A DNA stretch of 46,337 bases, from contig JAHEMI010000008.1 in NCBI GenBank assembly GCA_024643785.1, positions 3,941-50,277 of the forward strand, written 5' to 3'. Origin of the DNA: Burkholderiaceae bacterium. GTDB taxonomy: Bacteria > Pseudomonadota > Gammaproteobacteria > Burkholderiales > Burkholderiaceae_E. Of this stretch, positions 6,942 through 32,783 are shown piece by piece (the stretch's first letter is position 1; the number at the start of each line of letters is the position of its first letter). Made by a program: the position numbers and the translations under genes. The notes under the pieces are model-generated. The model was not told the DNA's origin. It ran no database searches and saw only the letters and a list, made by a program, of their open reading frames with translations.

Positions 6942-8771
6942 TCAGATCCCGTAGAAGTAGCCGAGCAAACCGGTGTACGACAGCCACATGATGAGCGCCA
7001 GCGGCAGGCCGACGCGTACGAAGTCGCCGAAGGTGTAGCCGCCGGCCGCCATCACCAGCACGTTGATCTTGTGCGCCAGCGGCGTCGCATAGCACAGGTT
7101 GGAACCGAAGATCACCGCCAGCACGAAGGCTTCCGGTGGCTGTCCGAGCTGCTGGGCGATGCTCGCGGCAATTGGCGTGCCGATCACCGCCGCCGCGTTG
7201 CTCGACACCACATTGGTGAGAACGCCCATGAGCATGATCAGGCCGCCAAGTACCACCAGCGGTGGCGCGCCAAAGGTTGCCGCCACGAACGTCCGCGCGA
7301 GGAACTCGGCGCCGCCGGTCTCGAGCAGCGCGGTGCCCAGTCCAAGACTCGCCACCACCACCAGGATGACCTGGGCGTTGAGCGCACCGGCGGCCTCGCG
7401 CCAGTTCAGGCAGCGGGTCACGATCATGGCCAGCACACCGCACATTGCGCTGATCGCGATCGGCACGATGCCCAGGGCAGCAGCGAGGATGACGGCGATC
7501 ATGATCATCACCGCAGTAGGCGAACGGCTGGTGTGCGGCAAGTCGGCAGTGGCGTCGACGACCAGCATCTCGTCGTCGCGGCGCAGTGCGGCGATCTGCT
7601 GCGCCGGTCCCTGTACCAGCAGCACATCGCCGGCCTGGAGTTCGACATCGCCCATTCCGGAGCCGATCGCGGTGACCTTCTTGCCGGCGCGGTGGATGGC
7701 CAGCACCACCAGCTGGTAGCGGTCGATGAAACGGACGTCCTTCAGGGTCACGCCCTCGATCGGCGATCCGCTCACCACTACGATCTCGGAAATCTGCTGG
7801 TCCTCGGCGCGCAGCGGATTGTCTTCGTCGACCTCCACTCCGCCCGAGTACAGCGTCGCCCCGAGCGCCTTCTCGAAGCGCTTGAGGTTGTTCGGGGTGT
7901 CAGTGATCAGCAGGCGGTCGCCGGCCTTGAGCCGGGCATCCGGAAATGGCGTGACGTAGAGTCCTTCGCCGCGCTCCACTCGCAGCACCTTCATTTGTCC
8001 GCCGGCCTTCTTGTCGGCTTCGGAGAGCGTCATGCCGACCGCGACGCTGTCATTGGGCAGATAGAGGTGGGCGGTAAAGATACGCGGCGAAGCGTCGGCC
8101 AGGGGGGTGCTGCGCTTGGGCAGCAGGCGCGGCGCTACCAGCCAGAGAAAGATTATGCCCACCGCGCCGGCCAGTGCCGCCGGCACGATGAAGTCGAACA
8201 TGCCGATCGGCCGCAACCCCATGTCGGCGGCCACCGAGACCACCAGCAGATTGGTCGAGGTGCCGATCGTCGTCGCGGTCCCGCCCAGCAGGGTGGCGAT
8301 GCCCATCGGCATCAGTACCTTCGAGGGCGACATCCTGGTGCGGATGGAAACGCTGATCAGCACCGGCAGCAGCAGCACGACGATCGGGGTGTTGTTGACA
8401 AAGGCGCTCAGCGTGGCCGCGATCACGATGGTCAACAGCAGCGAAAGCATCGGGCTGGCCTGCCACATGCGCGCCAGGAGCCCACCGAGCGGTTCGAGCG
8501 CTCCGGTGCGCACCAGCCCCTGGCCGACGATCATCAGGGCGCACACCGCCACCAGCGCCTCGTGGCCAAAGCCGTGGAAGAAGTCGATCGCGCGCACCAC
8601 GTGGCCGTGCGAGACGTATGGGAAGATCTCGAAGACCAGCGCCAGCATGGCGATAACTGCCATGCTCGAAGTCTCGAGCGGAATCTTGTCGCGCATGAAC
8701 AGCGCCAGTGCGACCAGCGTGAGGATCATCACGGTGATGGCATGGGGGTCCGGCAACGCTGGAAAATTCAT
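6942..8771 (-). CDS. SLC13-family permease with two RCK_C (TrkA-C) domains
   Basis: A 609-residue inner-membrane transporter. Two hydrophobic halves (about residues 10-215 and 415-609) flank a soluble middle of about 200 residues that reads as two RCK_C domains. Each half has an Asn-containing motif of the DASS/SLC13 fold: [16 protein letters not shown] in the first and [15 protein letters not shown] in the second. Members move sodium-coupled dicarboxylates, citrate or sulfate; the substrate cannot be assigned here. It lies directly upstream of mutS on the same strand with a five-base gap, although no functional link to repair is known. Confidence 0.9.
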
Positions 8772-8933
8772 CGCTCAACCTTGGTTCTGGCGGCAGGCGA
8801 CTAGTCTAGCCCAAGCCCGGTGGATGGCGCAGCCGGCCACTGCGCTGCCATGGCGACAGCCGGTGAGCGTTGAATGCGTGATAGTGGTGCCCCGCGCGCT
8901 GCGCGGCGATGCCGCTGCCAGCCGGGCTTGCGC

Positions 8934-20895: not shown

Positions 20896-20988
20896 GGAGA
20901 CGTGGCCGAGAGGTCGAAGGCACTCCCCTGCTAAGGGAGCATGCGGGCAAAACCTGCATCGAGGGTTCGAATCCCTCCGTCTCCGCCA
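20896..20988 (+). tRNA. tRNA-Ser (anticodon GCU)
   Basis: The 93-base gene folds as a class II tRNA. The 7-bp acceptor pairs GGAGACG (20896-20902) with CGTCTCC (20978-20984), then discriminator G and encoded CCA (20986-20988). The anticodon stem CTCCC/GGGAG encloses CTGCTAA, with anticodon GCT at 20930-20932, reading AGC and AGU. A long variable arm follows, as expected for serine, and the T loop is GGTTCGAATCC. The lysC-tRNA-Ser order is frequent in betaproteobacteria. Confidence 0.97.
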
Positions 20989-21119
20989 CTTGCAAACCAG
21001 TGGCGGCCAACGCTATTTATCCGATCCCATACCCCCACGACCCGGCACGCATGAAACCATGCGAGCGACCTGGTCGCGTCCATTGATTTCCTTTGCAGGC
21101 TGAGCCAGAGGTATTCCAG

Positions 21120-21998
21120 ATGTCCGAATTCGAAATCGTCGCGCGTGAGGACTTTTCCGACGTCACGTACTTGCTGGAGATCCGGCACCCGCTGATGGCC
21201 AAGGCCGCGAGGCCGGGGCAGTTCGTGATCGCCATGCTCCACGAGAACGGGGAACGCATTCCCCTGACCATCGCCGACTTCGACCGCGACAAGGGCACCA
21301 TCACCCTGGTGATCCAGGCGGTCGGCAAGAGCACCCGCGAGATGCAGCAGGCTTGCCAGGTCGGCACCAATCTCTACGGCCTGGTCGGACCGATGGGGCT
21401 GCCCAGCGAACTCGGTCATGCCAAGAAGGCGATCTGCGTCGGCGGCGGCCTGGGTGTCGCACCGGTCTACCCGCAGGCGCGCGCGCTCAAGGAGAGCGGC
21501 GCCTACGTGATCGGCGTCATCGGCTTCCGCAACAAGGACCTGGTGTTCTGGGAAGACAAGTTTCGCGCGGTCTGCGACGAACTCATCATCTGCACCGATG
21601 ACGGTTCGGCCGGGATCAAGGGCCTGGTCACCGACGGGATCAGGATGGCGCTCGAGAAGCACGACGACATCGACGAGTGCATCGCCATCGGGCCGCCGAT
21701 CATGATGAAGGCGGCGGTCGAGGCCACCCGCGAGCGCAAGATCAAGACCATGGTCAGCCTCAACCCGGTGATGGTCGACGGCACCGGGATGTGCGGTGGC
21801 TGCCGGGTCAACGTGGGCTCGGAGGTCAAGTTCGCCTGTGTCGACGGGCCCGACTTCGACGGTCACCAGGTCGATTTCGACGACCTGATGATGCGCCTGC
21901 GCCGCTACAAGGAGGTCGAGCGCCAGGCGGTCGAGCGCTGGAGCGAGAAGTGCCGCATGGAAGGTGCCCGCGAAGTCTCGCGTGCCGGCAGCAAATAG
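21120..21998 (+). CDS. NfnA-like FAD/[2Fe-2S] ferredoxin:NADP reductase subunit
   Basis: A 292-residue flavoprotein of the sulfide dehydrogenase / NfnA / PyrK type. ATG 21120 has AGAGG at 21107-21111. An FAD-binding barrel covers about 1-100, a Rossmann NAD(P) domain (CVGGGLGVAPVYPQA) follows, and a C-terminal [2Fe-2S] site has Asp220, Cys225, Cys228 and Cys240, the Asp-Cys3 pattern known from Thermotoga NfnA. With the next gene it should form an NfnAB-like ferredoxin:NAD(P) oxidoreductase in the cytoplasm. It is the first gene of the five-gene redox block. Confidence 0.9.
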   Translation: MSEFEIVAREDFSDVTYLLEIRHPLMAKAARPGQFVIAMLHENGERIPLTIADFDRDKGTITLVIQAVGKSTREMQQACQVGTNLYGLVGPMGLPSELGHAKKAICVGGGLGVAPVYPQARALKESGAYVIGVIGFRNKDLVFWEDKFRAVCDELIICTDDGSAGIKGLVTDGIRMALEKHDDIDECIAIGPPIMMKAAVEATRERKIKTMVSLNPVMVDGTGMCGGCRVNVGSEVKFACVDGPDFDGHQVDFDDLMMRLRRYKEVERQAVERWSEKCRMEGAREVSRAGSK

Positions 21999-22071
21999 GA
22001 ATTGAAAGGGACGGTCGGCCTGCGGTGATGGGGCGGACCGGTTGGGTTTATCTCAGGAGCTAGAGCAGCAC

Positions 22072-23571
22072 ATGGCGAAGAAAAGAACGATTCGCACGAT
22101 CCCGCAGGAGCGCACGCCGGTTCGCGAACAACCGGCCGTCGAACGGGCCCGCAACTTCACTGAAGTAAATCTCGGCTACAACCCGGTTGAGGCTGCCAGG
22201 GAGGCCGAGCGTTGCCTGCTGTGCGCCGACCCCAAGTGCATTGCCGGCTGTCCGGTGGGCATCAACATCCCGGCGTTCATCGAGAAGATCCACGGCAAGG
22301 ATTATCGCGGCGCCTATGAAGTGATCGCGCGCACCAACCTGTTGCCGGCCGTATGCGGCCGGGTCTGCCCCCAGGAGAACCAGTGCGAGGGCGTGTGCAT
22401 CGTCGGCGACAGCCTCGAGCCGGTCGCCATCGGGCGGCTCGAGCGCTTCATCGGCGATCTCGCCATCGAGAAGAACTGGGCGACTGCCCCCTACGTCGAG
22501 CCGACCGGCTTCAAGGTCGGGATCGTCGGCTCGGGGCCGGCGGGAATGGCGTGCGCCGCCGACATGGCCAAGGCCGGTTGCGACGTGACGGTATTCGAGG
22601 CGTTCCACCAGCCCGGCGGCGTGCTGCGTTACGGGATCCCCGATTTCCGGCTGCCCAACGTCGTCATTGACGCCGAGATCGACAATCTCAAGAAGCTTGG
22701 CGTCAAGTTTCAGAACAATACCCTGGTCGGGCGCCTGTTCACGATCGAGCAGATGATCGACGAGCTTGGTTTCCACACCGTGTTCATCGGCACCGGGGCT
22801 GGCTATCCGACGATGATGGGCATCCCCGGCGACTCGCTCAACGGCGTGCTTTCTGCCAACGAGTTGCTGACGCGCTGCAATCTGATGCGGGCCAAGGAAT
22901 TCCCCAATTTCGACACCCCGTTGCCGATCGGTCGGCGCGTGGCGGTCATCGGTTCCGGCAACACCGCGATGGACGCGACCCGCGTCAGCCGCCGTCTCGG
23001 CGCCGAAAAGGTCTACTGCGTTTATCGCCGGACCAAGGCCGAAAGTCCGGCCCGGGCCGAGGAACTGCACCATGCGATGGAGGAGGGGGTCGAGTTCCAT
23101 TGGCTGACCGCCCCGATCGAGGTGCTCGACGACGGCAACGGTTCGGTCCGCGGGATGCGCTGCGTGCGCATGGAACTGGGTGAGCCCGATGCTTCGGGGC
23201 GGCGCCGTCCGGTCCCGGTCAAAGGCAGCGAGCACGAGTTCGAGTGCGACATGATCGTCTACGCGATCGGCACCAATGCCAACCCGATCATCGGCCAGAC
23301 CTCACACCTCGAGCTCAACAAGTGGGGCTACATCGCCGCCAACGGCGAGTTCGAGACTTCGATCTCGGGCGTATTTGCCGGCGGCGACATCGTCACCGGC
23401 GCGGCAACGGTGATCGAGGCCATGGGTGCCGGACGCCGGGCTGCGGCAGCGATGAAGGTGTACCTCGGGGTCCATGGAATCGGCAAGGACGAGCAGGGCG
23501 CTCCGAAGGCACCGGAACTCTTTGGAATCGACCGGCGCGAGCACAATTTCGTGCGCGTGCGGGCCGGATAG
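22072..23571 (+). CDS. NfnB/GltD-like NADPH-dependent oxidoreductase subunit
   Basis: A 499-residue flavoprotein of the GltD (glutamate synthase small chain) family, often annotated gltA or gltD. The N-terminal domain carries two [4Fe-4S] motifs: Cys48, Cys51, Cys56, Cys60 and Cys95, Cys99, Cys105, Cys109. FAD-binding (GIVGSGPAGMACAADM) and NADPH-binding (VAVIGSGNTAMDATRVS) folds follow. No large glutamate synthase gene is present here, and the partner upstream is NfnA-like, so an Nfn role (electron exchange among ferredoxin, NADH and NADPH) is more likely than glutamate synthesis. A ribosome site AGGAG lies 12 bases before ATG 22072, a rather long spacing. Confidence 0.9.
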   Translation: MAKKRTIRTIPQERTPVREQPAVERARNFTEVNLGYNPVEAAREAERCLLCADPKCIAGCPVGINIPAFIEKIHGKDYRGAYEVIARTNLLPAVCGRVCPQENQCEGVCIVGDSLEPVAIGRLERFIGDLAIEKNWATAPYVEPTGFKVGIVGSGPAGMACAADMAKAGCDVTVFEAFHQPGGVLRYGIPDFRLPNVVIDAEIDNLKKLGVKFQNNTLVGRLFTIEQMIDELGFHTVFIGTGAGYPTMMGIPGDSLNGVLSANELLTRCNLMRAKEFPNFDTPLPIGRRVAVIGSGNTAMDATRVSRRLGAEKVYCVYRRTKAESPARAEELHHAMEEGVEFHWLTAPIEVLDDGNGSVRGMRCVRMELGEPDASGRRRPVPVKGSEHEFECDMIVYAIGTNANPIIGQTSHLELNKWGYIAANGEFETSISGVFAGGDIVTGAATVIEAMGAGRRAAAAMKVYLGVHGIGKDEQGAPKAPELFGIDRREHNFVRVRAG

Positions 23572-23636: not shown

Positions 23637-25544
23637 ATGAACGATGTGATTGCGGCGCAAAAGGAACGGGACGCACAGGCCGTGCCGAAGCAGAAATCGG
23701 CCAAGGCGGTCCAGGTGCTCTCCGAGCATGTTATCGAGGTGATCAGCGACTCCGGCGAGGGGGCCCAGCGTTGCGGGCAGGCGCTTGGCGGGCTGGCGGC
23801 GAAGATGGGCAATGGGGTCTGGACGGTGGAGATCATCCCCGCCGAGATTCGGCCACCGGCGCGCAGCGTCGCGGGCGCCAGCGGCAACCGCATCCGGATC
23901 GGTTCCCAGCGGATCACCAACGGCGGTGACGAGGCTGACCTTGTGGTGGCATTCAACGAGCAGGTCCTGCTCGGTCGGGTGCGGGCACGCGAACTCAAGC
24001 AGGGCTGCAAGATCCTGCTCGAGGCCGCCTGGCGCGACAGCGCCGACCCGGCAGTTTCCAAGGCCTACGTCGAGACCTATGACGAACTGGTGGCCGCCGG
24101 GTTCGAGGTCATCGAGGTTCCGATGGAGATCGAGAGCCGCAAGGTGATGTCCGATCCGCGCCGCGGCAAGAACATGTTCGTGCTCGGCGTCCTGGCTAGC
24201 GTCTACAGCCTCGACCTGGACATGGCCCGCGACCAGATCGCGCTGACCTTCGGCAAGAAGGCGCAGAGCGTCATCGACATCAACATCAAGCTGCTCGAGG
24301 CGGGTTTCGCCTGGGCCGAGAAGGCGCTCGAATTCAAGTACGCCATTCCGGCCGAGCGGCCAACCACACCGCAGATCGTCGTCAACGGCAACACCTCGCT
24401 GGCGCTCGGTGTGCTCGCATCGGGGATGGAAATCTGCTCGATGTACCCGATCACGCCGGCTACTTCGGCCTCGCACTACCTGGCCGAGGTGTTCCAGAAC
24501 GTCGGCGGCATCGTCCATCAGGCTGAGGACGAGATCGCGGCCTGTGCGTTCGCGATCGGTGCTTCCTATGCCGGCAAGTGCACGATCACGATCACCTCGG
24601 GTCCGGGCTACTCGCTCAAGCAGGAGGCCCTCGGGTTGGCGGTGATGGGCGAGATCCCGCTCGTCGTGGTCAACGTGCAGCGCGGCGGCCCCAGTACCGG
24701 GCAGCCCACCAAGGGCGAGCAGAGCGACCTGTTTGCAGCGGTCTACGGCAGTCACGGTGACGCGCCCAAGGTGGTGATGGCGGTGTCGACCCTGGAAGAA
24801 TGCTTCTACTCGATGATTACCGCCCGCAAGATCGCCGAGACCTTCAACATGGTGGTCGTGGTGCTCTCGGATGCCCACCTCGCGGCCTCGCAGCAGCCGT
24901 TCACCAGGCCGCAGTTCTCCGAGAACTGGATGGCGCCCCCGGTCGACCAGAGCGCGGTTCCCGAAGGCATGAAACCCTACGACTGGGACCACGAGACCGG
25001 CCTGGCGCGGCGCTTCATTCCTGGCCAGCCCGGCGGCATGCATACGCTCACCGGCCTGGCCCACGACGCCAACTCCAAGGTCGCGTATGACGCCGACACC
25101 AACGAGCAAACCCTGCGCTTGCGCAGCCTCAAGCTCGCCGCCCTGCAGAAGACGCTCAAGACGCCGCCGGTGTTCGGCGACCCCGAGGGCGACCTGCTGG
25201 TGGTCGGCTGGGGAAGCACCCGCGGCGCGATCGAGGAAACCGTTGCTGGCCTGAGGGCGGATGGCCACAAGGTTTCCTCGCTGCACCTGACGTTCCTGCA
25301 GCCGATGGCCTCTGGGGTCAAGGAAGTGATGCAGCGGTTCAAGAAAGTGATGACCGTCGAGAACAGCTGGTCGGACAAGATCGAAGACACGCTCATCGAC
25401 GAGGACAATCGCCGCTATTCACAGCTCGCGACGATGCTGCGCGCCCGCTACGTGATCGACATCGACTGCTGGAGCGAGGCCCAGGGCCGGGCGCTCAAGC
25501 CCAATGTCGTGCGCAAGGCACTCCTGAAAAAACTGCAGAACTGA
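23637..25544 (+). CDS. 2-oxoacid:acceptor oxidoreductase, fused gamma-alpha subunit
   Basis: A 635-residue subunit. A gamma domain (about 30-230) contains the acyl-binding type fold with SGEGAQRCGQALGGLA; an alpha domain (about 240-600) has CSMYPITPATS, EDEIAACAFAIGASYAG and TSGPGYSLKQEALGLA. Together with the beta subunit downstream this makes a KorAB-type enzyme that oxidatively decarboxylates a 2-oxoacid (2-oxoglutarate is the usual substrate of this two-subunit layout) and reduces ferredoxin. ATG 23637 is the first start that gives a normal N-terminus; its ribosome site is weak. The substrate is inferred. Confidence 0.92.
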   Translation: MNDVIAAQKERDAQAVPKQKSAKAVQVLSEHVIEVISDSGEGAQRCGQALGGLAAKMGNGVWTVEIIPAEIRPPARSVAGASGNRIRIGSQRITNGGDEADLVVAFNEQVLLGRVRARELKQGCKILLEAAWRDSADPAVSKAYVETYDELVAAGFEVIEVPMEIESRKVMSDPRRGKNMFVLGVLASVYSLDLDMARDQIALTFGKKAQSVIDINIKLLEAGFAWAEKALEFKYAIPAERPTTPQIVVNGNTSLALGVLASGMEICSMYPITPATSASHYLAEVFQNVGGIVHQAEDEIAACAFAIGASYAGKCTITITSGPGYSLKQEALGLAVMGEIPLVVVNVQRGGPSTGQPTKGEQSDLFAAVYGSHGDAPKVVMAVSTLEECFYSMITARKIAETFNMVVVVLSDAHLAASQQPFTRPQFSENWMAPPVDQSAVPEGMKPYDWDHETGLARRFIPGQPGGMHTLTGLAHDANSKVAYDADTNEQTLRLRSLKLAALQKTLKTPPVFGDPEGDLLVVGWGSTRGAIEETVAGLRADGHKVSSLHLTFLQPMASGVKEVMQRFKKVMTVENSWSDKIEDTLIDEDNRRYSQLATMLRARYVIDIDCWSEAQGRALKPNVVRKALLKKLQN

Positions 25545-25554
25545 GAGACCGACC

Positions 25555-26508
25555 ATGACCATCGCCCCTACCGAATGCCTGCTTCAACTCTACGAGAAGC
25601 GCCACGAACTCGAGGACTACAAGGGTGGCATACCGCGCTGGTGTAGCGGCTGCGGAGACAACGCCATCCTGGCGGCAGTCCAGCGGCTCTGCCGCGACGA
25701 GAACCTGCGCCCCGAGAAGACCATGTTCGTGTCGGGAATCGGCTGCTCGAGCCGCTTCCCGCACTACATGAAGACCTACGGTTTCCATGGAATCCACGGC
25801 CGCGCCTTCCCGGTGGCCGAGGGCATCAAGATGGCCCGTCCGGACCTCAACGTGTTCGTCAACACCGGCGACGGTGACTGCTGCAGCATCGGCGCGGCGC
25901 ACTGGATCCACGCCGTGCGCTACAACATGAACATCACGGTGATGTTGCACGACAACCAGGTCTACGGCCTGACCAAGAAGCAGGCTTCACCGACCTCGCC
26001 GATCGGCCTCAAGAGCAACACCACGCCGCAGGGCGCGTACCTTGACGGCCTGCATCCGCTCGCCGTCACGCTCGGCATCCAGAACGTTTCGTTCGTGGCG
26101 CAGGCGGTGGATTGGATCCCCGAGGTGCTCTACGACATCCTCTCCAAGGCCTATCACCACAAGGGCTTCTCGTTCGTGCGCATCGTGCAGCGCTGCCCGG
26201 AGTGGCTGCCCAAGCTGCACGAAGCCTTCCTTAGCGACCCGAGCCGGATCCAGCTGTTGCACCATGACAATGGCCTGAAGCTGAGCAGCGGGATCTCCAA
26301 GACCTACCAGAACCAGCTTGAACACGACCCCTCGAACATTCATCGGGCGCGCGAGATCATTTCCGACCTCGAGCAGATTCCGGTCGGGATCCTGTACCAG
26401 GACAAGAGCGTCCCGTGCTACGAGGAAGTTCGCAACGCCGGTCAAGCCCGCACCACGGAGTATGTCCGGGCGGGCCTCGAGGCCGAGTTCGACAAGTTTT
26501 CCGTGTGA
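25555..26508 (+). CDS. 2-oxoacid:acceptor oxidoreductase, beta subunit
   Basis: A 317-residue thiamine-diphosphate subunit. TPP binding is shown by GDGD (105-108) followed by Asn134 in MLHDNQVYGLT. Four cysteines, Cys30 and Cys33 (WCSGCGDN), Cys64 (IGCSS) and Cys214 (QRCPEW), match the [4Fe-4S] ligands of OFOR beta chains. ATG 25555 lies ten bases after the alpha stop, with GAGAG just before it. It completes a catalytic pair with the fused gamma-alpha subunit. The gene order resembles the 2-oxoglutarate:NADP oxidoreductase loci known from aromatic-degrading Azoarcus and Thauera; that link is inferred. Confidence 0.94.
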   Translation: MTIAPTECLLQLYEKRHELEDYKGGIPRWCSGCGDNAILAAVQRLCRDENLRPEKTMFVSGIGCSSRFPHYMKTYGFHGIHGRAFPVAEGIKMARPDLNVFVNTGDGDCCSIGAAHWIHAVRYNMNITVMLHDNQVYGLTKKQASPTSPIGLKSNTTPQGAYLDGLHPLAVTLGIQNVSFVAQAVDWIPEVLYDILSKAYHHKGFSFVRIVQRCPEWLPKLHEAFLSDPSRIQLLHHDNGLKLSSGISKTYQNQLEHDPSNIHRAREIISDLEQIPVGILYQDKSVPCYEEVRNAGQARTTEYVRAGLEAEFDKFSV

Positions 26509-26556: not shown

Positions 26557-28779
26557 ATGGAAGCGGAACTTCAATCCCACATTGCCTTTCACCTCACCGG
26601 CAAGCGACCCAATGACGGGCTCGAGCTGATTGCCGGCCAGAACCTGCGACCCGCGCTGATGGCGCAGTATCGCGATCTCTCAGCGCTGCGCCACGATTTC
26701 CCCGTGGTGCTGGTGGAGGGCGCCGAACCAGCGGCATGCATCCAGTCGCTCTGCGCCGTCTTCGACGCGCTTGCGGCGCGGCTGGCGGCTGGTCCGGAGC
26801 CGGAGCGCACCGCGCAGCACTTGCGGCGTCTCGAGCGCGAGATTCGCACCGCGGTCATCGCTGGCGGCGCCCGCGCCACACTCACTTCAATCTGGGACAC
26901 CCTCGCGGCGAAAATGACCGCGGCCGGCGATGATCCCGCCTTTGCCGACAGTCTCGAGCGTGCTCGCACCCTGCTCAAGATCGACGGCGCGGTCGTGGCC
27001 TGCGATGCCGATTTGCCGCAGAGCTTCGTCACCCACGCCTGGCGGGCGGTCGAAGCGGCCCGGGCGAAACGGTTCCGCGCCGAGATCGGGGCGCTGATCG
27101 CCCGGCTGGCCGATATCCTGCGCGCCGACTTCTCGTTGTCGCCCGAGGGGCGTTCACCCGAGAACCTGCGCGCGGCGATGGCCAATGCTTTCGCCGACGA
27201 ACTCGATTTCAGTGCGCTCTCGGGCGTGCTGTCGCGGATGTCAGCCAAGGTCCCGGTGCCCGAGGCGCGTCTCAAGCGGGTGCGCGAGGTACTGGCTGTC
27301 CTGCAGGGACAGCGTTTCGTGAGTCTCGAGGGGGTGACTACCGAAGGCCGGCCGAAGTCCGAGCTCCACGATTTCCTGTTTGGCAGTTCGGCGGAGGCGC
27401 TCGCGGCGTATCGGGCACGCCTGCCCGAAATCATCGAACTGGTGCGGGCGATGTCGATCGCGCGGCTCGAGTTGCGCTCGGACTACGTCGCTGAGCGGCA
27501 CGACCCGTTCTTCCGCGACTTCAGCGCCCAGATGCTGGGCGAGGATGAACTCGCGCGCTTCCCCGGCTACCTGGTGCGGCTGCGTGCCGCGGACTTCAAG
27601 CCCGGCGACAACTCGGAACTCATGGAATTGCTCGGCGCCGGATTGCCGGTCAAGTTCCTGCTGCAGATCGACGACATACTCGAGCCTTCCAACATCGGTG
27701 ACGGCCGGATTGCTTTCCGCGCCGGTGCGAAGCAGCTCGCCAAGATGGCGCTCGGATTGCACGACGTTTACGTGATGCAGGCCGCTGGTTCCGGGCTCTA
27801 CAAACTGCGCGAGCAGATGATGGCCGGTCTGGGCAGCTATGGTCCGGGCCTGTTGAGCATCTTTTCGGGCGATTCAGGGACCACCGGCGGCATCTCGCCC
27901 TATCTGGTCGGAGCGGCAGCGACCGAATCGCGCGCCTTCCCGAGCTTCTGGTACGACCCGGCAGCGGGTGCCGACTGGGCGAACCGCTTCTCGCTCGCCG
28001 AGAATCCCCAGGTCGCCGCCGATTGGGCGGGCCACGACATGCGCTACGAGGACGCGACCCATCAGCGGATCGACGTCAAGTTGCGCTTCACGATGATCGA
28101 TTTCGTCGCCAGCGACAGCCGCTATTCCAACCACTTCGCGGTGGTGCCGAGTGGCAAATGGGACGATGACCTGTTCCCCGCGGCCGAGGCCCTCGGTGCC
28201 AGGGTCATCGTCGCCGGGTCGACCCAGCGCAGCGTGCCCTACGTCATGATGGTCGACGACCAGAACTCAATGAACCGGGTGATCGTCGACGAGAAGATGA
28301 TGATTGCGGGCGAACACTGCCTGAGGCAGTGGCACAGCCTGCAGGAACTCGGCGGCCTGCACAACTCGCACGCTCAGGCTTTGCTGAAACGCGAACGGAG
28401 CGCATGGGAGGCCGCACAGACTGTTCTCGACGTGGCGCGAACGGCGCCGACGCCGGCGGTTGCCGCGGCTCCCGCCGCTGCGGCTCCGGCCGCCAGCCCG
28501 GCGCAAGCCGCGGAAGAACCAGAGCGCGCAGTTGGCGAGCCCTACATCGATTCAGGGCGCTGCTCGAGTTGCGACGAGTGCATCAACATCAACAACAAGA
28601 TGTTTGGCTATGACGCCAACCGCCAGGCCTTCATCGTCGACGCCAAGCTGGGAACATTCCGGCAACTGGTCGAGGCGGCAGAGGGCTGCGCCGTGTCGAT
28701 CATTCATCCGGGGGTGCCGGTCAATCCTGATGAATCGGGGTTGGAGGATTTGATCGAGCGCGCCGAACCGTTCCAGTGA
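26557..28779 (+). CDS. large protein with PFOR-like region and C-terminal single-cluster ferredoxin motif
   Basis: A 740-residue protein of no certain family. Residues 1-330 are helical and unrecognised. Residues about 355-620 resemble by eye the distal part of the TPP-binding domain of pyruvate:ferredoxin oxidoreductase (LAKMALGLHDVYVMQAAGSG, SYGPGLLSIFSG, FPSFWYDPAAG), but the GDG TPP motif that should precede it is not seen. An Ala/Pro linker (about 625-655) leads to a ferredoxin-like tail with Cys669, Cys672, Cys675 and Cys711. It ends the NfnAB-KorAB block, 48 bases after the beta subunit, and is followed by a terminator. It may carry electrons to or from the oxidoreductase. Confidence 0.75.
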   Translation: MEAELQSHIAFHLTGKRPNDGLELIAGQNLRPALMAQYRDLSALRHDFPVVLVEGAEPAACIQSLCAVFDALAARLAAGPEPERTAQHLRRLEREIRTAVIAGGARATLTSIWDTLAAKMTAAGDDPAFADSLERARTLLKIDGAVVACDADLPQSFVTHAWRAVEAARAKRFRAEIGALIARLADILRADFSLSPEGRSPENLRAAMANAFADELDFSALSGVLSRMSAKVPVPEARLKRVREVLAVLQGQRFVSLEGVTTEGRPKSELHDFLFGSSAEALAAYRARLPEIIELVRAMSIARLELRSDYVAERHDPFFRDFSAQMLGEDELARFPGYLVRLRAADFKPGDNSELMELLGAGLPVKFLLQIDDILEPSNIGDGRIAFRAGAKQLAKMALGLHDVYVMQAAGSGLYKLREQMMAGLGSYGPGLLSIFSGDSGTTGGISPYLVGAAATESRAFPSFWYDPAAGADWANRFSLAENPQVAADWAGHDMRYEDATHQRIDVKLRFTMIDFVASDSRYSNHFAVVPSGKWDDDLFPAAEALGARVIVAGSTQRSVPYVMMVDDQNSMNRVIVDEKMMIAGEHCLRQWHSLQELGGLHNSHAQALLKRERSAWEAAQTVLDVARTAPTPAVAAAPAAAAPAASPAQAAEEPERAVGEPYIDSGRCSSCDECININNKMFGYDANRQAFIVDAKLGTFRQLVEAAEGCAVSIIHPGVPVNPDESGLEDLIERAEPFQ

Positions 28780-29763: not shown

Positions 29764-30387
29764 TTATCGCTGCCAGCGTCGTCCCGGGCCGTTCTGGTCG
29801 ACGAGCGCGCGCTGTTCGGGCGTCAGTGCGGCATAGAGATCCTTCAGCGCTCCCGCCATCGAGTCCATCTCGGTGACGCGCTGCTTCATCATCGTGCTGC
29901 GCAGCGCGGCACGCTCGGGAGCGGTCATCTTGGGATCCTGCATGGCGGCAAACATCGCCTCGTGGCTGGCGCGCATGGTTTCGGCCTGTTGCTTGGACTT
30001 GCCGACGAATGCTTGCCAGGCGCCATCCTGGGCAGCAGTGATCCCGAGATAGGACTTGAACCGCTCGAGCCGGGCTGCGACGTAGTCAGCGTCCCCGCCC
30101 ATCATGCCGGGACCGTAGCCGCCACCCATCATGCCGGGGCCGTACCCGCCGCCCATCATGCCGGGGCCGTAGCCGCCGCCCATCATGCCAGGGCCGTGGC
30201 CGCCACTAAATCCACCGGGACCGAAGCCGCAGCCATCTCCTCCCGGACCGTAGCCGCCACCCATCATGCCGTAGCCCGGGCCGTATCCGCCGCCCATGCC
30301 CCAGCCGCCGGGATGGGCGTAGGCTACTGCGGCCACCGCGATAGCGGCGCCGGCGAGCACTGCAACTACTGTCTTGCGAGCTTTCAT
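29764..30387 (-). CDS. Spy/CpxP-like periplasmic protein with Met/Gly repeats
   Basis: A 207-residue exported protein. ATG 30387 has GGAG six bases upstream. A signal peptide (about 1-24, ending AVAYA) precedes a Gly/Met/Tyr/Pro-rich tract (about 25-98) with repeats of the form GYGPGMMGG, then a helical domain (100-200) that ends in the LTPEQ signature of the Spy/CpxP family. Family members are periplasmic chaperones or stress modulators, some linked to metals. Met-rich repeats often bind Cu(I) or Ag(I), but binding is not shown. It is divergent from an OmpR-type regulator whose sensor carries a similar tract. Confidence 0.85.
   Translation of the reverse strand: MKARKTVVAVLAGAAIAVAAVAYAHPGGWGMGGGYGPGYGMMGGGYGPGGDGCGFGPGGFSGGHGPGMMGGGYGPGMMGGGYGPGMMGGGYGPGMMGGDADYVAARLERFKSYLGITAAQDGAWQAFVGKSKQQAETMRASHEAMFAAMQDPKMTAPERAALRSTMMKQRVTEMDSMAGALKDLYAALTPEQRALVDQNGPGRRWQR
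30094..30290. repeat. 27-base tandem repeat inside the Spy-like gene
   Basis: CATCATG recurs at 30100, 30127, 30154 and 30181, spaced exactly 27 bases, and again at 30262, which is three more periods on. Each unit encodes nine residues of the GYGPGMMGG type on the minus strand. The units between 30182 and 30262 are diverged. The exact period keeps the reading frame, so copy number could vary without breaking the gene. Confidence 0.85.
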
Positions 30388-30609
30388 GTCGAACTCCCTG
30401 CGTTTGTCTGTCCGGAACTGGCCTCTTGCTGGCCAGCCAAGTTGTTGGAGGATCGTGTTGCCCTCCACGACGCCATGAGAACATCGCAATGTAAGCGCAG
30501 CGTGTCACGGCGAGGCTAGTTTGTAGCGCGGTATGTCGCAGGTTGGTCAGGACACAATGGCTTACACAATTTTCTGTTACGGCAGCGAGAACGCGGTATA
30601 AGACTGGCC

Positions 30610-31332
30610 ATGGAGCAAAGTGACCACATCCTGATCGTCGACGACGACCAGGAGATCCGGCAACTGCTGGGCGATTACCTGGCGCGCAACGGCATGCGCG
30701 TCACTACGGTGGGCGAGGGCGGGGCGATGTGGCGCGCGCTCGAGTCCGGCCAGATCGATCTGATCGTGCTCGACCTGATGCTGCCGGGTGACGACGGGCT
30801 CACCTTGTGCCGCAACCTGAGGGCTCGCTCCGATATTCCGGTGATCATGCTGACCGCGCGCGGCGATGAAACCGACCGGATCGTCGGCCTCGAGATGGGC
30901 GCCGACGACTATTTGCCCAAGCCGTTCAATCCTCGGGAGTTGCTGGCGCGCATCAAGGTGATCCTGCGCCGCGCGCGCAGCCTGCCGCGCAACTTGCGCC
31001 CAGCGGAGTCACGGGGGCTGAAATTCGCCGGCTGGACGCTGGACAACCAGCATCGTCACGTCGTGTCGCCTGAAGGAGTCGTGGCGCCGTTGAGCGGAGC
31101 GGAGTACCGGCTGTTGCGGGTCCTGCTCGAGCATCCCAACCGCGTGCTGAGCCGTGACCAGCTGCTGGACCTCACGCAGGGTCGCGAGGCCGATGCGCTC
31201 GACCGCAGCATCGACGTCTTGATCAGTCGGCTGCGCCACCGCATCAATGACGACCCGCGCGATCCCGCGCTGATCAAGACCGTCCGTGGCGAAGGCTACG
31301 TGCTCGCGAGTCCGGTCGAGGAGCTCGACTGA
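30610..31332 (+). CDS. OmpR-family response regulator
   Basis: A 240-residue regulator. The receiver domain (1-120) has acidic residues Asp11-13, phosphorylation site Asp55 (VLDLMLPG) and Lys104 (LPKPF). A winged-helix DNA-binding domain (about 140-235) ends with TVRGEGYVL. The stop TGA shares one base with the sensor kinase ATG (TGATG), so the two are one translational unit. Two TTAC half-sites lie at 30562-30565 and 30577-30580 in the divergent region and could be binding sites, unproven. Confidence 0.95.
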   Translation: MEQSDHILIVDDDQEIRQLLGDYLARNGMRVTTVGEGGAMWRALESGQIDLIVLDLMLPGDDGLTLCRNLRARSDIPVIMLTARGDETDRIVGLEMGADDYLPKPFNPRELLARIKVILRRARSLPRNLRPAESRGLKFAGWTLDNQHRHVVSPEGVVAPLSGAEYRLLRVLLEHPNRVLSRDQLLDLTQGREADALDRSIDVLISRLRHRINDDPRDPALIKTVRGEGYVLASPVEELD

Positions 31333-32783
31333 TGAGGCTGCTGCCGCGATCCCTGTTCGGACGCATGGCGCTGGTGCTGTTTGCCGGCCTGCTGTTCGCG
31401 CAACTGCTCAGTTCGGTCATCAATTTTGCAGAACGCGATCGCCTGCTCCTGCATGCCAGCGGCAGGCAGCCGGTGCAGCGCATCGCCGACATCGTTCGCC
31501 TGCTCGATTCCGTTGCCAGTGACGAACGCGCGCGGATCGTGAATATTCTCAACGCGCCCCCGCAACTCGTGTCGCTCGATCGCGACCCGGTGGTGGCAGA
31601 TCCAAATCCGGACTTCGACGTGGCACGCTTCGCGGCACTGCTGCGCGACGCTCTGGGCAGCGGACGTGACTTCCGGGTCAGGGCCGTGCAATGGGCCCAG
31701 GAGTCTCCCGGAGGGCGTGGCGCCCCGGGCGGATGGCCCGGTAGGTGGGCCCCGCCGGCAAGAGGCGCGGGGCCGGGCGGCGGTCCGGGGATGATGATGG
31801 GGCCGGGCATGGGAATGGGCATGGGTCCGGGAATGCACGGTGGCATGCTGTTCCTGACCCAGGTGCGGCTCGCCGATGGCACCTGGGTGACGTTCGATAC
31901 GCTGGTGCCGCGCGAGTCGGCCGATCTGCCGCTGCGGCTGGTGGCGACGCTGGCGATTTCGCTGGTGGCAGTGCTGCTGCTGTCATTGTTCGCGGTGCGC
32001 TGGGTGGTGCGGCCGCTAGGTGTGCTGGCCAAGGCCGCTGACGAACTCGGCCGCGACATCGATCGCGCCCCCTTGCCGGAGACCGGCCCGCTCGAGGTGC
32101 GCCACGCCGCCGCGGCGTTCAACGCCATGCAGGGCCGCCTGCAGCGCTTCATCAGGGAGCGGACCGGCATCCTGGCCGCGATGTCGCACGATATCAAGAC
32201 CCCGCTTACCAGGATGCGCCTGCGCGCCGAGCTGCTCGACGAGGAGACCCGCGAGCGGTTCGGGAAGGATCTTGGCGAGATCGAGGAGATGGTCGCCGAA
32301 ACGCTCGAATTCATCCGCGGGGTCGGGGCCACCGCGCAGCGCCAGCCGGTCGATGTCGACGCCCTGCTCGAGAGTCTCCAGGCGGACTACGTTGAAACTG
32401 GCCGCAGCGTGCGCATCGAGGGCGATCCTGGCGGGCAGATCGTCGCCAACGCGCCGCTGTTGCGGCGCTGTCTTGGAAATCTGCTGGATAACGCGCTGGC
32501 GTACGCTGGTCCGGCAACGATCTCGGTTAGCGCCGGCGGTACAGAACTGGTGATCTGCGTGCTTGACCAGGGACCCGGCATCCCCGAGGCCGATCTCGAG
32601 AATGTTTTCGAGCCTTTCCACCGGCTCGAGGGATCACGCAGCCGCGCCACCGGCGGCACTGGGTTGGGGTTGACCATCGCGCGCAACATTGCGCAAGGTC
32701 AGGGCGGCGACCTGGTGCTGCGCAATCGCGCGCACGGCGGCCTGGAGGCAGTGCTGACCCTCCCGAGGGGCACCCGGAACTGA
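31332..32783 (+). CDS. sensor histidine kinase with Met/Gly-rich periplasmic segment
   Basis: A 483-residue membrane kinase. Transmembrane helices lie near 10-32 and 198-222, with a periplasmic sensor domain between. HAMP (about 223-275), the H-box AAMSHDIKTPLTR with phospho-acceptor His286, and N, G1 and G2 boxes (NLLDNALAYA, DQGPGIP, GTGLGLTIA) follow. Within the periplasmic part residues 154-172 are a Met/Gly/Pro tract with eight Met and one His. The tract resembles that of the adjacent Spy-like protein, suggesting they sense or handle the same ligand, perhaps copper or silver. Partner of the preceding regulator. Confidence 0.94.
   Translation: MRLLPRSLFGRMALVLFAGLLFAQLLSSVINFAERDRLLLHASGRQPVQRIADIVRLLDSVASDERARIVNILNAPPQLVSLDRDPVVADPNPDFDVARFAALLRDALGSGRDFRVRAVQWAQESPGGRGAPGGWPGRWAPPARGAGPGGGPGMMMGPGMGMGMGPGMHGGMLFLTQVRLADGTWVTFDTLVPRESADLPLRLVATLAISLVAVLLLSLFAVRWVVRPLGVLAKAADELGRDIDRAPLPETGPLEVRHAAAAFNAMQGRLQRFIRERTGILAAMSHDIKTPLTRMRLRAELLDEETRERFGKDLGEIEEMVAETLEFIRGVGATAQRQPVDVDALLESLQADYVETGRSVRIEGDPGGQIVANAPLLRRCLGNLLDNALAYAGPATISVSAGGTELVICVLDQGPGIPEADLENVFEPFHRLEGSRSRATGGTGLGLTIARNIAQGQGGDLVLRNRAHGGLEAVLTLPRGTRN

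Follow-up and report, generated by a model that had tools for sequence, protein, structure and literature searches.

The 2-oxoglutarate:NADP+ oxidoreductase of Azoarcus evansii, associated with Ebenau-Jehle 2003, reportedly has three subunits, a GltD/NfnB-like flavoprotein together with KorA and KorB, and is said to be directly NADP-linked while containing neither NfnA nor a ferredoxin subunit derived from pyruvate:ferredoxin oxidoreductase (PFOR). Two-subunit 2-oxoacid:ferredoxin oxidoreductases (OFORs) such as StOFOR lack domain V and carry a single cluster near the pocket where a free, external ferredoxin was modelled, and the available part of that report mentions no additional subunit of the kind considered here (PMC5020499). 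Here, we describe a locus in a 46,337-nucleotide stretch of DNA from a Burkholderiaceae bacterium (contig JAHEMI010000008.1; the whole stretch is referred to as the window), in which korA and korB are of the StOFOR type, encoding a fused gamma-alpha subunit and a one-cluster beta subunit, and are followed by a gene for a 740-residue protein, P0001. We propose, with a probability of roughly 0.72, that P0001 is a dead half of a PFOR kept as a dedicated third, electron-transfer subunit of this two-subunit Kor-type oxidoreductase, whose substrate is most likely 2-oxoglutarate, and that it wires the enzyme to a NAD(P)H module. Other described systems share parts of this arrangement. The five-subunit 2-oxoglutarate:ferredoxin oxidoreductase (OGOR)/PFOR of Aquificaceae also has extra OFOR subunits, but, as far as the accessible text describes them, the ferredoxin-like epsilon has two [4Fe-4S] sites and delta is akin to the epsilon subunit of carbon monoxide dehydrogenase/acetyl-CoA synthase (CODH/ACS) and is not PFOR-derived, unlike P0001 (PMC10052474). 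The genes upstream in the window encode both Nfn-type subunits, whereas AadN is a fused Nfn, and in the available sections of that source AadN and KorAB are alternatives among R. palustris strains and not one operon with a ferredoxin linker (PMC9973337). No description of a P0001-like subunit was found in the open full-text literature, a body that leaves most subscription journals outside its coverage.

P0001 is encoded by an open reading frame (ORF) with an ATG start and no internal stops (26557-28779, + strand), which divides into four segments:

26557..27384, + strand: residues 1-276, remnant of the domain V/linker region of a giant PFOR with both four-cysteine [4Fe-4S] motifs deleted (hhalign, motif map).
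27385..28416, + strand: residues 277-620, homologue of the thiamine pyrophosphate (TPP) domain, domain VI, without GDG and NTGGQ (hhalign over residues 277-640, motif map, match to a Protein Data Bank (PDB) profile).
28417..28536, + strand: residues 621-660, Ala/Pro linker (from the sequence; highest nonsynonymous divergence, dN, of the four segments).
28537..28776, + strand: C-terminal single [4Fe-4S] ferredoxin domain, Cys669/672/675/711 (Fer4_13, 1dax profile match, motif in 19 of 21 homologues).

A Pfam scan at E <= 0.1 returns Fer4_13 as its sole match (residues 664-717, E 3.1e-6, 28.2 bits with a cut-off of 24.5) and does not detect POR_N, PFOR_II or POR, which represent PFOR domains I-IV; an NCBIfam scan returns no match at E <= 0.1. 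Profiles were compared with hhalign, using 11 of the 21 full-length short proteins (15 from beta-type and 6 from gamma-type loci) and 7 giant PFORs. The P0001 family is collinear with columns 747-1652 of the giant ~1650-residue PFOR (E 1.2e-95), being homologous along its whole length to the C-terminal half of proteins such as L044 and L055, terminal ferredoxin included. Residues 277-640 align with giant columns 1171-1544 (E 5.4e-59), a real resemblance that extends beyond the stretch (355-620) which a first-pass annotation of this DNA had read as PFOR-like. The same annotation had matched the first 330 residues to nothing, and this is overturned: residues 1-276 alone align with giant PFOR 753-1121 at E 7.9e-14, where the best of 30 column shuffles reaches 0.096, the reversed profile 0.36 and the giant N-terminal half 0.43. 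The solved PFOR 1b0p (residues 974-1116) is matched by the family profile only weakly (E 0.065). These alignments identify P0001 as the C-terminal half of a giant PFOR. Direct descent of the TPP-like part from KorB is not supported, the E value of residues 277-640 being 0.33 with the KorB group as against 5.4e-59 with the giants. Within the genome of the window (G000), P0001 itself is the sole match to P0001 at E <= 10, and therefore no giant PFOR is detectable there by that search.

Compared with a giant PFOR, P0001 is without domains I-IV, the two internal [4Fe-4S] motifs, the proximal CxxC and the TPP motifs, and its partners are KorAB and NfnAB, not Rnf. Along the matching stretch, all seven aligned giants carry in order CxxCxxCxxxC, CKxCxxCVxxC, GDGxCxGC(G/S)EK, GGDGAM(Y/F)DIG and DTQVYSNTGGQ. 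Both internal four-cysteine motifs are deleted or replaced in 11/11 aligned short proteins and kept in 7/7 giants, while the proximal-cluster CxxC, intact in 7/7 giants, is lost in 11/11 short proteins with at most one cysteine left; in the window this is C149, kept in register in 15/15 beta-type homologues and a Tyr in 6/6 gamma-type homologues. GGDG and NTGGQ are absent in register from all 21 full-length homologues and both present in the seven aligned giants, so the GDG motif that the first-pass annotation had reported missing is indeed missing, and NTGGQ with it. A motif regular expression, devised after the alignment had been viewed, matches 9 of 11 short proteins, 7 of 7 giants, none of 5 pseudo-PFORs (described below) and none of 145 other ORFs. 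It is very improbable that P0001 is, next to KorAB, another active TPP enzyme whose cofactor motif is unusual. A GDG does stand at residues 381-383 in the window, in the same place in L042 and L043, and, in L047, six residues past the register, but none of these strings falls in register with the TPP site and they are not common to the rest of the 21, with other strays elsewhere (GDG in L045 and L119, NTGG in L052); at the register itself P0001 has LRAADFKPGD (342-351) and IDDILEPSNI (371-380), positions that vary widely among the other homologues.

The part that has been retained is the ferredoxin tail. Cys669, Cys672, Cys675 and Cys711, the single ferredoxin-like site of the first-pass annotation, are all present, and the family profile matches ferredoxin I (1dax, E 1.1e-6). 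The terminal motif is found in 19 of the 21 full-length homologues, and the two exceptions are L116, at a contig end, and L045, where a frame break places the ferredoxin in the next frame. We regard the tail as a candidate redox-active site that would bind a single [4Fe-4S] cluster. The last cysteine lacks a following Pro, as had been pointed out, and is followed by Ala; this is not peculiar to P0001, for the residue is not Pro in 7/7 aligned giants and 6/6 aligned beta-type proteins, and is Pro in 4/4 readable gamma-type proteins. Two homologues have unusual tails: in L045, from a single-contig genome, the ferredoxin of the half-PFOR occupies a separate frame (8649-8902), and in L040 (8152-11070) the linker-ferredoxin unit is present in three tandem copies.

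P0001 is the last of five same-strand genes, nfnA-nfnB-korA-korB-P0001, and starts after a 48-base gap from the end of korB. The features preceding it are:

20896-20988: tRNA-Ser, upstream of the operon.
21093..21998, + strand: nfnA-like FAD/NAD-binding subunit (NF004862/PRK06222 over cut-off; PF10418).
22042..23571, + strand: nfnB/gltD-like large subunit with Fer4_20 (TIGR01316 over cut-off).
23637..25544, + strand: korA, fused gamma-alpha subunit (TIGR03710 over cut-off; POR and POR_N domains), the start being the first ATG past nfnB.
25555..26508, + strand: korB, TPP/[4Fe-4S] beta subunit (PF02775 and PF12367 above cut-off; PorB_KorB TIGR02177 at 239 bits, under its cut-off of 261.9).

The window KorB retains GDGD and Cys30/33/64/214. 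Homology, motif loss and gene linkage together uphold the picture of a catalytically dead PFOR-like module with a one-cluster ferredoxin beside an active-looking KorAB, from which the first-pass annotation had proposed an electron-transfer or docking role that we also infer. Farther along the window, a possible secreted protein (29764-30489, - strand) has a signal-like start and GYGPGMMGG repeats, and is adjoined by a response regulator and histidine kinase pair (30610-32783).

The 21 full-length homologues come from a class sample of 274 genomes (8), a relatives sample of 61 genomes (4 more) and an order sample (9 more), in which the P0001 and BcrA searches covered 399 and 398 genomes. In the class sample, 25 genomes match P0001 at E <= 0.001, and these matches comprise full-length homologues, frames (mostly of ~1650 residues) that match C-terminally only, and weaker local matches. 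Spread beyond Gammaproteobacteria (as delimited by GTDB) was looked for in 398 genomes sampled across the phylum, where G000 itself gives the sole full-length match, the others being frames of ~1650-1700 residues and shorter frames, mostly of ~550 residues, that match no more than part of the TPP-like region. Among 30 loci matched only C-terminally in the class, relatives and order samples, 28 show TPP motifs in the matching frame, and L101 and L109 are unconfirmed by pattern. Frames of 517-592 residues at L023, L024, L025, L027 and L069-L087 match no more than part of the PFOR TPP region and may correspond to the beta half of a PFOR that is split. korB lies directly before the P0001 homologue in 21/21 full-length loci across two lineages, and the five-gene order of the window is found in all 13 beta-type loci with enough contig, L041 and L117 being cut by contig ends. 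The expectation that homologues would always neighbour korAB or nfnAB is thus borne out for korB throughout and for nfnAB in the evaluable beta-type loci, while the gamma-type loci have rnfB and rnfC instead. At L112 (20-4172), the P0001 operon is closely preceded by another, divergent NfnB-KorA-KorB set, encoded on the opposite strand, that presumably resembles the three-subunit NADP-linked ketoglutarate oxidoreductase (KGOR).

The linkage is with one particular KorB. In the class sample, the window KorB finds matches at E <= 1e-40 in 35 of the 274 genomes, and near-full-length matches at E <= 1e-100 occur in 8, exactly those with a full-length P0001. The remaining 27, with other KorBs only (E 2.5e-65 to 1e-43), contain no full-length P0001, though some have a giant PFOR or a partial match; one of them, G265, has a C-terminal match at a contig end (L017) that keeps its TPP motifs. 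Similarly, in the relatives sample a KorB is found at E <= 1e-10 in 28 of 61 genomes, and the close type in 5, the same 5 that have a full-length P0001. In a midpoint-rooted tree of 35 KorBs (L041, a fragment, and L112 left out; over-long frames trimmed to the last 330 residues), the P0001-linked KorBs form one group of 20 rows with 100/100 support, parted by long branches from the 15 others. One of these others, L137, is the KorB of G318, separated from its P0001 by a contig break. G000 itself has three KorB matches, one of which adjoins P0001.

For the whole of P0001, comparison with the congeners L043 and L052 gives ratios of nonsynonymous to synonymous divergence (dN/dS) of 0.125 and 0.147, and comparison with a third congener, L042, gives 0.230; the operon neighbours stand at 0.05-0.11 and 0.13-0.19, respectively. 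The dead TPP-like domain (277-620) has a dN/dS of 0.10-0.11 against L043 and L052, and among the four segments dN peaks in the Ala/Pro linker, at 0.22 with either congener. P0001 is under purifying selection and is not a relic. Loss of the TPP and internal cluster motifs is what a decaying fragment of a giant PFOR gene would also display, yet we give this explanation almost no credence, as it is already contradicted by selection and by synteny: full-length homologues persist in 21 genomes of two lineages with a fixed korB linkage, and no giant PFOR was found in G000 by the search with P0001 at E <= 10. A more serious alternative, although still an unlikely one, is that P0001 is a redox-silent scaffold or regulator, whose dead body stabilises KorAB or holds NfnAB close and whose ferredoxin tail acts as a sensor (redox or iron-sulfur). 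As a scaffold would have it, the body has lost the internal cluster motifs of its ancestor while remaining under the selection just described. In distant relatives (L111-L119 except L116), however, the ferredoxin is the most conserved part, with 56-68% identity to the window against 37-44% for the N-terminus and 41-49% for the TPP-like part, and in L040 it is triplicated; electron carriage therefore fits better than a sensor or scaffold. This argument is tempered by the close congeners, where the ferredoxin (80-81%) is not the most conserved part and falls below residues 277-620 (87-88%).

The giant PFORs and the gamma-type loci indicate how such a module may be used. L044 (~1650 residues) has Pfam matches to POR_N, PFOR_II, POR, an internal Fer4, the TPP domain and a terminal Fer4_13, and matches solved PFORs at E values down to 6.4e-84; on these matches, L044 and its relatives are PFORs that carry an additional ferredoxin at the C-terminus. 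At the eight giant loci where context was read (L044, L049, L050, L051, L053, L054, L055, L122), rnfB precedes the PFOR in 8/8 and rnfC follows it in 7/7 evaluable, with further rnf genes downstream at two (rnfD and rnfA at L044, rnfG and rnfE at L053), and a PFOR-Rnf supercomplex is possible. The gamma-type loci (L045, L046, L047, L048, L057, L120) have the order korA-korB-P0001like-rnfB-pseudoPFOR in 6/6, with rnfC next in 5/5 evaluable and TfrA-like and NuoF-like genes ahead in 5/6. Their pseudo-PFORs, with longest frames of 1264-1599 residues, have lost the TPP motifs and kept both internal four-cysteine motifs in 6/6, and the five that were aligned lack the terminal ferredoxin. Four of the five evaluable gamma-type operons include sucC-sucD (L047 is without them, and at L057 the contig ends), which points to 2-oxoglutarate as the substrate. 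According to the accessible portions of two studies of tubeworm symbionts, a dimeric OGOR (korAB) and a 'PFOR-like' gene of the Riftia symbiont, a candidate counterpart of the half-PFOR or pseudo-PFOR, drop together in expression under sulfide limitation (PMC11636981), and a dimeric korAB is placed with other tricarboxylic acid (TCA)-cycle genes (PMC6315080), a placement that, as described in that text, fits the gamma-type operon. With the beta-type operon, the giant and gamma-type loci make three systems that share a ferredoxin-tailed PFOR body beside a 2-oxoacid site and a NAD(P)H module: the giant PFOR with Rnf, the gamma-type KorAB, half-PFOR and pseudo-PFOR with Rnf, and the beta-type KorAB and half-PFOR with NfnAB. 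Judged by its motifs, the PFOR part of both KorAB systems is dead, which would leave catalysis to KorAB.

As we envisage it, a giant PFOR was split, and its C-terminal half, stripped of the TPP site and the internal cluster motifs, would have been kept as a subunit. The dead PFOR body would dock or anchor on KorAB, so that P0001 may supply the ferredoxin as part of the complex, its ferredoxin head on the Ala/Pro tether taking electrons from the single KorB [4Fe-4S] cluster. The head would then hand these electrons to the NfnAB flavoproteins, which would make the whole a 2-oxoglutarate:NAD(P) oxidoreductase. Nfn-type electron confurcation or bifurcation is possible, and the system may be reversible for CO2 fixation. 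A bolder extension, which we hold only tentatively and judge less probable than its opposite, is that P0001 nucleates an NfnAB-KorAB supercomplex in which 2-oxoglutarate oxidation is wired to the flavin bifurcation site without free ferredoxin, reversibly, allowing NADPH-driven CO2 fixation into 2-oxoglutarate; gamma versions would plug the same dead module into the Rnf pump, and dead PFOR scaffolds would be a general, undescribed class of adaptor that swaps 2-oxoacid enzymes between NAD(P)H modules.

Several observations weigh against P0001 as the electron-transfer subunit of a 2-oxoglutarate enzyme. KorB homologues elsewhere occur without P0001, which is therefore dispensable for that chemistry. 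P0001 diverges faster than its neighbours (40-46% identity in L111-L119, with KorB at 72-75%), which suits a scaffold but would equally suit a loosely constrained accessory. With only 25-28% identity to P0001 and another module as neighbour, the gamma-type proteins may serve a different role, and sucCD, which suggests the substrate in those operons, is not seen beside the beta-type operon. Two AlphaFold2 models (full length and residues 277-625), each from an alignment of three close sequences, have a mean predicted local distance difference test score (pLDDT) of 35.5. Finally, all five genomes of the relatives sample that carry P0001 also have the E1 component of 2-oxoglutarate dehydrogenase (OGDH; sucA, E 0). 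This rules out the operon as an OGDH replacement, and the KorAB system is therefore an addition in those five genomes, not a simple replacement in the TCA cycle.

The genomes were also searched for other clients. Nitrogen fixation is rejected as a general client, as a single beta-type genome of 15 has nifH over cut-off, and autotrophy is rejected as a general link, with ribulose-1,5-bisphosphate carboxylase/oxygenase (RuBisCO) at E < 1e-100 in 9 of 15 and no match in G000. BcrA is over cut-off in 8 of 15 (in G276, as two partial matches on two contigs). We consider it improbable that P0001 is a tethered, KorAB-anchored ferredoxin whose electrons go to a client different from NfnAB, such as benzoyl-CoA reductase or another low-potential enzyme. 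BcrA is over-represented in the order sample, occurring in 6 of 11 P0001-bearing genomes and 7 of ~387 others (Fisher p 1.4e-7, uncorrected for kinship), and is present in G000. Nonetheless, 5 of the 11 P0001-bearing genomes gave no BcrA match, the 7 other BcrA-bearing genomes gave no P0001 match, and nfnAB linkage is complete where evaluable; benzoyl-CoA reductase, although enriched, is neither needed nor sufficient and is rejected as a required client. In G000, bcrA lies on contig C59 (G000:C59:11599-21088), ~7.6 kb from a second, different korB, and the aromatic pathway therefore seems to have its own KorAB.

Beyond what the first-pass annotation had noticed, these results add the origin of P0001, the regularity of its linkage and its place as one of several re-uses of the ferredoxin-tailed PFOR body. 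P0001 is a gene marker that separates this type of KorAB from others, and a candidate third subunit of an enzyme of central carbon metabolism that is generally regarded as two-subunit. If our reading of P0001 as a dedicated electron-transfer subunit is true, a large metabolic enzyme has been halved, inactivated and taken over by a related enzyme for electron transfer. This would explain how an oxidoreductase without a ferredoxin domain of its own becomes wired directly to NAD(P)H, perhaps in bacteria exposed to oxygen, for which low-potential ferredoxin in free form may be a liability.

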